DNA from: Methanobacteriota archaeon
GTDB taxonomy: Archaea; Thermoplasmatota; Thermoplasmata; RBG-16-68-12
Length of the DNA stretch: 35,118 bases
Assembly (NCBI GenBank): GCA_005878385.1
Contig: VBMN01000059.1
Location: 1 to 35,118, forward strand
Direction: 5' to 3'
The translations under genes and the position numbers were made by a program. Below, piece after piece: positions 7,056-12,605 of this stretch. How positions within the stretch are numbered: position 1 is the first letter of the stretch; each line of letters starts with the position of its first letter. The notes beneath the pieces are model-generated. The model had not been told where the DNA came from and did no database searches. It saw only the letters and a program-made list of their open reading frames with translations.

Positions 7056-7535
7056 ATGGCGGCCGTTCGAAATCCTCTCGCGGGCTTCGCGATCACGATC
7101 TTCGGAGCCCTCGCCCTCGCGTTCCTTGTGGGCATCCCAATCCTCTTCCTGCCCCAGGCCGAGTTGGTCTTCTTCTACCTTCCTTTCGCCCTGTTCGGCG
7201 TTGGCATGTTGTCGGGTCGGAGCGGCTTCCTCGGTACGCTCGGGTTCGTGGGTGGAACCCTCGGTGGCTTCGTCGGCGTCTATGTGTTCCAGACGTTGTT
7301 CGTCCCCCAGGGATGGCCGATTTGGCCCGCCGGGTTGGCGATCCTCTTGGATTTCGCGTTCGGGACATTCTGCGGGGCGGGCGGCCTCGTCATGGGGAGG
7401 GTCGGCCTTCGGCGGATTGACCGGATGGCGGAGCACGGAATGAAGATGCGGCGCTGCCTGAAATGCGGCGCGAAGGTCGGCATCGCGGCCCGCAAATGCT
7501 GGTCCTGCCGGGCGTACCTGCCACCGACCGGGTAA
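7056..7535 (+). CDS. Small polytopic membrane protein with C-terminal zinc ribbon
   Basis: 159 residues. About four hydrophobic segments (roughly 8-31, 35-53, 58-78 and 90-114), rich in Gly, Phe and Leu, are followed by a cytoplasmic-looking basic stretch and a C-terminal four-cysteine ribbon CLKC-x10-CWSC (about 132-149). The ATG is preceded by GGAGGG at 8-9 bases, so this is a leadered gene. It ends 6 bases before the convergent RPA-associated gene. The CWSC-type ribbon resembles those of the protein at 11542-11871. The family is not recognised; a membrane-tethered zinc ribbon could act in protein or nucleic acid interaction, but this is inference. Confidence 0.8.
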   Translation: MAAVRNPLAGFAITIFGALALAFLVGIPILFLPQAELVFFYLPFALFGVGMLSGRSGFLGTLGFVGGTLGGFVGVYVFQTLFVPQGWPIWPAGLAILLDFAFGTFCGAGGLVMGRVGLRRIDRMAEHGMKMRRCLKCGAKVGIAARKCWSCRAYLPPTG

Positions 7536-11541: not shown

Positions 11542-11871
11542 TCAGACGTCGCGCTTCGGCTGTTTTGTCGGCGTGTTCGAGCAAGACCAGCACGAACGGC
11601 GAGAGACGCTGTTCCACGCGCGGCACTGGCGGCACTGCCATGTCTCTGACGAAGACGCCGTCGAGGGATACATGCTGCGGCGGGCGATCGCGGCCCCGCA
11701 GGACCAGCAGATCGTCAGCTCAGCTTCGTTGGCCACCGCGCAGTGAGGGCACTCCCAGCTTGGGCCCAGGAGCCGCGGTAGTTTCCGCGTGCGAAGACGC
11801 CAGTCGACCCACGCGAAGACGACCCCGCCGACGAGAAGGATAAGGAGGGCACCCGGCAGGAGATCTTCCAC
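11542..11871 (-). CDS. Membrane-anchored protein with two RanBP2-type zinc fingers
   Basis: 109 residues. An N-terminal transmembrane helix (about 5-23, LLPGALLILLVGGVVFAWV) is followed by a basic stretch (RLRTRK) and two tandem fingers. Finger 1 is W-x-CPHC-x3-N-x6-CWSC and finger 2 is W-x-CRQC-x3-N-x6-CWSC; both match exactly the RanBP2-type pattern WxCx2Cx3Nx6Cx2C. The start is GTG at 11869-11871, with a TATA-like CCTATATTACC (11895-11905) 29 bases upstream. It is convergent with the SDR gene (16-base gap). RanBP2 fingers bind single-stranded RNA or ubiquitin in eukaryotes; the role here is unknown. Confidence 0.82.
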   Translation of the reverse strand: MEDLLPGALLILLVGGVVFAWVDWRLRTRKLPRLLGPSWECPHCAVANEAELTICWSCGAAIARRSMYPSTASSSETWQCRQCRAWNSVSRRSCWSCSNTPTKQPKRDV

Positions 11872-11894
11872 GTCCGATGACGTTCTTTCGTGGC

Positions 11895-11905
11895 GGTAAT
11901 ATAGG
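11895..11905 (-). promoter_or_regulatory. TATA-like box of the double zinc finger gene
   Basis: CCTATATTACC on the minus strand, centred 29 bases upstream of the GTG start, the spacing expected for a nearly leaderless archaeal transcript. Confidence 0.55.
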
Positions 11906-11947
11906 CTCCTCGCTCCGTATCACGTACGATACTTGTTGTGCCGCGAC

Positions 11948-12565
11948 TCACTGATTGAACGTCTCGACCTTCTCGAACGTCTGCTTCAGGTACTTGATGA
12001 GGACGTCCCGGTTTCGCCTCAGGTGGCTCTCGTACCAGACGCGGACCAGATCCGCAAAGAGTCGATGCAAGTCGTCCACATTCGTTTTGTCGAGGGGCTG
12101 GTCGTACAGCGTGTGGATCGTCCAGATCCGCTTCCATCCGCTATATTTGTAGTAATGTTCGCCCTCGCAGTATTCGAACGTCACTCGGAGATGGGCCTTG
12201 CCGTCCGTCTCGACATAATTCACCTTCAACGCGTCCCCGACGCGGCCTTGGTCCATCGAGCGGTCGAGAAGTTGAATCGATTGGACGGCCGCCGGATTGA
12301 AACCGGGGCGCCAGTGCCAGTCGCCGTCCGGGAACGTGTCCGGGAACACGGCCCAGTTCGTGTACGAAGGCTCGAGGGCGAAGTGCACGTTGATCTTGTT
12401 GAAGCGCTTCCAGACCCTCCAGAAGTCCTCGATCAGGGTCTTGTTCAATTCGAGCCGGGCGACGTTTTGTTCTCCGACGTCCTCGATGATTTCCCGAGTC
12501 TTCTTCTCAAGTTCCGCGTCCAGGGAGGAGAACCAGTCATCCCCCTTGGCCTTCTTCGCCGCCAT
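11948..12565 (-). CDS. Hypothetical protein, soluble, aromatic-rich
   Basis: 205 residues from the ATG at 12563-12565 (a TTG lies two codons earlier). Not recognised. It has a charged N-terminus (AAKKAKGDDWF), a helical stretch (about 12-60, LEKKTREIIEDVGEQNVARLEL... FWRVWKRFNKI), then a beta-rich section with many Trp/Tyr/His (HFALEPSYTNWAVFPDTF; HLRVTFEYCEGEHYYKYSGW) and a C-terminal helical region (DLHRLFADLVRVWYESHLRRNRD). There is no signal peptide or membrane segment. A TATA-like CTATATAG lies at 12606-12613. Good coding character and a clean promoter make it a real gene; function unknown. Confidence 0.75.
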   Translation of the reverse strand: MAAKKAKGDDWFSSLDAELEKKTREIIEDVGEQNVARLELNKTLIEDFWRVWKRFNKINVHFALEPSYTNWAVFPDTFPDGDWHWRPGFNPAAVQSIQLLDRSMDQGRVGDALKVNYVETDGKAHLRVTFEYCEGEHYYKYSGWKRIWTIHTLYDQPLDKTNVDDLHRLFADLVRVWYESHLRRNRDVLIKYLKQTFEKVETFNQ

Positions 12566-12605
12566 GGCCAAGTCCCTTCTCTCCGGCCTCGAATGAAATC
12601 TCTCG

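Follow-up and report, generated by a model that had tools for sequence, protein, structure and literature searches.

A small archaeal protein with a predicted membrane helix and two tandem RanBP2-like zinc ribbons

Zinc fingers of the RanBP2 type (PF00641), such as those of Nup153 and RanBP2/Nup358, carry the signature W-x-C-x2(-4)-C-x3-N-x6-C-x2-C. A ribbon of this type has already been reported in archaea, in the ArnA protein of Sulfolobus, as set out in the available portions of two papers (PMC6509490; PMC12852372). The accessible text of the second describes the ArnA finger as a ZnF ribbon that binds the protein ArnB, mostly through hydrophobic contacts, and describes ArnA as having one finger and an FHA domain, with no membrane helix mentioned in that text (PMC12852372). 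Other fingers of the RanBP2 type, those of ZRANB2, RBM5, RBM10, FUS and EWS, bind single-stranded RNA (PMC6384913, available part), and all of the NZF-ubiquitin contacts described in the available part of another report use a T-Y/F-hydrophobic motif (PMC4386031).

The window examined here, a contiguous stretch of 35,118 nucleotides of archaeal DNA, contains a short gene whose product carries two fingers of this kind in tandem behind a hydrophobic segment. Its features are as follows.

11542..11871, minus strand: gene for a predicted single-pass membrane protein of 109 amino acids with two tandem zinc ribbons (open reading frame, orthologues, dN/dS)
11785..11862, minus strand: predicted transmembrane helix, model residues 4-29 (hydropathy, model, charges)
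11698..11757, minus strand: finger 1, residues 39-58, WxCx2Cx3NEx5CWxC (motif search, alignment, charge)
11581..11640, minus strand: finger 2, residues 78-97, WxCx2CxAWNx6CWxC (motif search, alignment, charge)
11872..11947, minus strand: intergenic stretch with a TATA-like CTATA box, a putative promoter (alignment)

The initial annotation of this DNA had claimed two fingers fitting WxCx2Cx3Nx6Cx2C exactly, with the central Asn and the leading Trp, and the reading frame, coordinates and motifs all proved to be exact: finger 1 reads W39-x-C41-x2-C44-x3-N48-x6-C55-x2-C58 and finger 2 reads W78-x-C80-x2-C83-x3-N87-x6-C94-x2-C97. The corresponding DNA pattern has two matches in the window and none in 100 dinucleotide shuffles, which rules out a chance match as the origin of the tandem. 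Both fingers also have a Trp directly after the third Cys (CWSC). The second finger begins exactly 39 codons after the start of the first, and the protein ends 12 residues past finger 2. Compared with the RanBP2 type, whose signature both fingers carry, the window protein adds a CWxC in each finger, a fixed tandem spacing and a putative membrane helix. The two fingers differ in charge, finger 1 being net acidic (-2 to -3) and finger 2 net basic (+1 to +4) in each of 13 orthologues.

A single hydrophobic segment lies ahead of the fingers (best 19-residue Kyte-Doolittle mean, 2.46), and the AlphaFold model places a helix at residues 4-29, in agreement with the proposal that one N-terminal helix tethers the fingers. 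In 13 of 13 sequences the N-terminus is acidic (charge -2) and the stretch that follows the helix is basic (+3 to +5 among the orthologues, +5 in the window protein), charges that predict an outside N-terminus and cytosolic fingers. A RanBP2-type finger folds as two beta-hairpins around one zinc; the model contains strands at residues 38-40/47-49 and 77-79/86-88; it is of low confidence (mean pLDDT 65.4, pTM 0.34) and too weak to position the two fingers relative to each other.

The reading frame is a real gene under purifying selection, with dN of 0.034-0.40 against dS of 0.60-1.65 in nine codon comparisons with orthologues. Orthologues with 52-99% identity are present in 15 of the 19 genomes of the genus that were examined, the window's own included, and the four genomes lacking one are 64-78% complete. 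The start codon is GTG in the window; of the 15 orthologues of the genus that were read, 14 have GTG and one has ATG. An alignment of 13 orthologues shows no variation at the Cys, Asn, leading Trp or CW positions; one of the 13 loci on named contigs (L034, from an Eggerthellaceae bacterium, 22 residues matched) was a short ribbon match and was excluded from all alignments. Among 61 related genomes the gene is restricted to one genus, with weak class-level matches to the protein in two genomes (G055 and G058). Wherever it lies on the named contigs, it is flanked by the same gene for a 207-residue protein and the same SDR gene. A TATA-like CTATA box is located about 30 bases before the start codon, within the 76-base gap that separates the gene from that of the 207-residue protein. 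Because this box is kept in 13 of 13 sequences, we suggest that the two-finger gene has its own probable promoter, which would give a nearly leaderless transcript. Twelve of the 13 named contigs found belong to metagenome genomes from soils and sediments that carry the label Euryarchaeota archaeon, namely ten EA_ isolates, RBG_16_67_27 and RBG_19FT_COMBO_69_17. The available part of one report describes Ca. Angelarchaeales as a Thermoplasmatota order from Angelo soils and Rifle sediments (PMC9038741), and the contigs fit a placement in this order (RBG-16-68-12).

The profile and structure searches bear on the family to which the fingers belong. The window protein scored 29.2 bits against DUF7577 (PF24463; cut-off, 28) over residues 38-61, that is, finger 1, whereas it fell below the cut-offs of RanBP (PF00641; 23.1 bits against 27) and of the double zinc ribbon DZR (PF12773; 22.9 bits against 27.3, residues 41-97). 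DUF7577 is a single generic ribbon, unlike the window protein, and DZR shares with it the two consecutive four-Cys ribbons. The C-terminal FHA domain of ArnA-like regulators had no match in the protein in the Pfam search, and NCBIfam returned nothing relevant for it. All 10 members of the first alignment matched both RanBP and DUF7577 at E<=1. The RanBP cut-off was passed at this gene in 11 genomes of the same genus, while the window's genome, G008 and G006 stayed below it and G011 had no match. Across the class, the RanBP model found matches at E<=0.001 in 116 of 300 genomes but above its cut-off in only 16, and DUF7577 matches occur in 59 of the 61 relatives, in proteins of many lengths.

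Among solved structures, a single-sequence search reached Nup153 at 1.1e-4, and a profile of 13 orthologues reached human RanBP2 (E=1.1e-8) and Nup153 (8e-7), with L40e and Zn-ribbon translation proteins as weak matches. RanBP2 and NZF fingers likewise dominated the Foldseek results obtained with the low-confidence model, RanBP2 fingers ranking highest (target TM up to 0.89, no E-value below 0.001), and VIA-align of the same model gave a best Z of 2.5. A weak sequence and fold match to ArnA of Sulfolobus acidocaldarius (PDB 8s05, 5a8i; chain 8s05_C) was also obtained. These comparisons of sequence and of a predicted model support the view that the fingers resemble the RanBP2 type more than anything else of solved structure, and they do not assign the segments to a different fold devoid of zf-RanBP similarity. 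Because 23.1 bits falls short of the cut-off of 27, the window protein is RanBP2-like and is not filed as a member of PF00641; the interpretation offered in the initial annotation is partly supported. To oppose RanBP2 fingers to ordinary zinc ribbons is, moreover, a false choice, because the RanBP2 family is itself a zinc ribbon family (Zn_ribbon_RanBP in Pfam). Among the papers listed in literature searches, ArnA emerged as the archaeal precedent for RanBP2-type fingers, and those listed on archaeal zinc ribbons, transmembrane ribbons and fold classification included nothing on the window protein family. What we describe is a lineage-specific, well conserved and ordinary-looking family built from a common fold, and the archaeal RanBP2-type ribbon itself was already known.

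How special is the motif among the relatives? With the Trp omitted, Cx2Cx3Nx6Cx2C gave 535 matches (the sum of separate motif counts) in 61 of 61 related genomes, against 20 for a reversed control. The examples that were translated are ordinary zinc ribbons and a ribosomal protein that, from its type of sequence, we take to be L40e. The Asn therefore belongs to the ribbon core that these archaea use in general, and the notion that Asn and cysteine spacing mark a RanBP2 finger is not supported; a Cx2Cx3Nx6Cx2C core lacking the Trp should be read in these archaea as a common ribbon core. It is the leading Trp alone that distinguishes these fingers. When it was added to the pattern, 56 matches remained, in 22 of the 61 genomes, with none in the control, and 52 Trp-first matches also had the CWxC, in 17 genomes of the genus and one of the sister genus. 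Thus, the lineage-specific trait is the WxC...CWxC ribbon pair. Of 389 genomes drawn evenly from the phylum, two have the Trp-plus-CWxC pattern, the window's own and one other; among the genomes listed, the window's own is the sole member of its genus or family. A different Trp-first finger, AWxCxxCKLxNAPWSxxCTRC, was seen above the RanBP cut-off in genus g18 (L071, L066 and L079); at L071 it forms the end of a protein that also has a long Pro/Ala-rich linker and several hydrophobic segments.

A second, paralogous subfamily has the same layout, an N-terminal hydrophobic segment followed by two Trp-first CWxC fingers, and its more complete copies end in a basic, Ala/Pro-rich tail. It is present in 11 of 19 genomes of the genus (one copy being cut by a contig end) and in one of three genomes of the sister genus, and no copy was found in the genome of the window, whose completeness is 77%. 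Across orthologues and paralogues, 24 of the 25 exact pairs have finger starts 117 bases apart, and the remaining pair has them 120 bases apart. One paralogue (G015) has Ser in place of Asn in its second finger. Between the subfamilies, the first fingers share an identity of 0.51 and the second fingers 0.44, compared with 0.37 and 0.41 between the two fingers of one protein. The fingers thus match better across the subfamilies than within a protein, which argues that the pair is old and that its halves have specialised. The paralogue locus (L130 6114-12502; also L131, L133 and L134) contains, on the opposite strand, two ArsA/Get3-type ATPases, a 396-residue reading frame without a Pfam match and a CstA transporter.

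The hypothesis that we favour, with moderate confidence, is that the protein is a membrane-anchored docking protein that displays two cytosolic zinc ribbons to bind protein. The N-terminal helix would anchor the protein in the membrane in an N-out/C-in orientation, and a basic cytosolic stretch would lead to the two RanBP2-like, Trp-first ribbons at their fixed 39-residue spacing, each of them presumably coordinating one zinc through four cysteines. The ribbons are not interchangeable, since finger 1 presents an acidic NE..L face and finger 2 a basic AWN...R face, both with the extra Trp of the CWxC. Most likely, one or more cytosolic proteins would bind to a composite surface formed by the pair and would so be retained at the membrane, by analogy with the binding of ArnB by the RanBP2-type ribbon of ArnA, although the window protein has two fingers and a predicted helix where ArnA has one finger and an FHA domain. 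Against the docking hypothesis, no partner gene is tied to the two-finger gene, the model is weak (see the pLDDT and pTM above), and the basic finger 2 and tail would also suit RNA or an anionic lipid. If the hypothesis is true, the protein would be a small archaeal two-finger module whose RanBP2-like ribbons work without ubiquitin or the known RNA platform, and it would help to show the role of this type of finger before the nuclear pore. The protein is probably an ordinary docking protein, built on a very common fold in a variant specific to the lineage. A bolder version, which we consider very unlikely as a whole, is that soil Thermoplasmatota possess a home-grown, membrane-tethered RanBP2-like tandem, represented by two paralogous subfamilies that share CWxC cores and a fixed 39-residue register, and that this tandem brings one particular cytosolic machine to the membrane, perhaps a small GTPase or a targeting ATPase of the Get3/ArsA type; it would then parallel, in archaea, the use of such fingers by eukaryotes at the nuclear envelope.

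The initial annotation had hinted at RNA or ubiquitin binding, and the contact residues for both are almost all absent from the window protein and its orthologues (13 of 13). As a membrane-tethered RNA binder, the protein would hold mRNA or ribosome-associated RNA at the membrane by means of its tandem fingers and its basic tail, and among the fingers mainly through the basic finger 2, which has RR and Trp residues. The ssRNA-binding fingers of the same type cited above speak for this possibility, as do the basic charge of finger 2 in 13 of 13 orthologues, its three Trp residues and the role in translation of other archaeal zinc ribbons (L40e and the Zn-ribbon translation proteins found as weak matches). 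For a comparison of individual contacts, a presumed register was set with the ZRANB2 and RBM10 sequences. At the positions of the ZRANB2 contacts D4, N14, W17, R19, R20 and N24, taken from the available part of PMC6384913, finger 1 keeps none of the six residues in the 13 orthologues and finger 2 keeps one, the equivalent of R20, which is Arg in 13 of 13. The stacking aromatic residue of position 17 is replaced by Glu in finger 1 and by Ser or Gly in finger 2, and finger 1 is acidic; we therefore think RNA binding rather unlikely. Far less probable still is that the fingers bind an archaeal ubiquitin-like protein of the SAMP/Urm1 type in the manner of an NZF, gathering modified proteins at the membrane. 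NZF fingers (TAB2, HOIL1 and Trabid) are indeed among the fold matches, but, on a partly assumed register, finger 1 has G/A/S/M, V/I and S at the three motif positions, and finger 2 has R, A and S there, in every one of the 13 orthologues. Neither finger has any of the three residues of the T-Y/F-hydrophobic motif (PMC4386031, available part).

Alternatively, the protein might be a membrane stalk bearing zinc ribbons of the ordinary prokaryotic kind, with no special tie to RanBP2, its ribbons serving to stabilise or oligomerise it and the Trp being a quirk of the lineage. That DUF7577 provides its best Pfam match above cut-off and is nearly universal among the relatives would fit this explanation, as would the small share of RanBP-model matches in the class that exceed the cut-off. 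Yet the same-genus genomes that pass the RanBP cut-off at this very gene, the RanBP2-type nature of the nearest solved chains and the invariant Trp in both fingers, itself an argument for a specific ligand over structure alone, make it improbable in our view. Docking of cytosolic proteins is the reading that we retain.

A membrane protein encoded elsewhere in the window (7056-7535, plus strand) had been linked to the two-finger protein through its C-terminal ribbon. The CxxC-x10-CWSC end is present (CxxCGAKVGxxAxKCWSC), and this ribbon, CWSC included, is kept in all seven orthologue tails read, but the CWSC half is all that it shares with the fingers: the Asn position holds Val and the leading Trp is missing, again in 7 of 7 tails, so that a RanBP2 finger is ruled out here. 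Ribbons at the membrane, which had been suggested to be used lineage-wide, are indeed frequent. In a convenience sample of 30 of the 535 motif matches (loci L100-L129), a hydrophobic segment is present in 16 of the 30 ribbon reading frames from genomes of the class, and 8 of the 14 that lack one are L40e-like. Thus, ribbons on membrane proteins are common in the class and are not peculiar to this lineage.

The upstream neighbour (11948-12571, minus strand) encodes the 207-residue protein, which has no Pfam match at E<=0.001. Its family is well conserved, with 83-98% identity among full-length copies in the genus, and is spread over the class, in 52 of the 61 related genomes. Because this range extends far beyond the single genus that has the two-finger gene, we rejected the neighbour as a dedicated partner. 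At one locus (L033 7289-7865) it matches in two pieces with the middle unmatched, as a result of divergence, damage or assembly error, and at another (L026 8349-12884) the SDR and GNAT genes are separated by about 4.5 kb more DNA than in the window.
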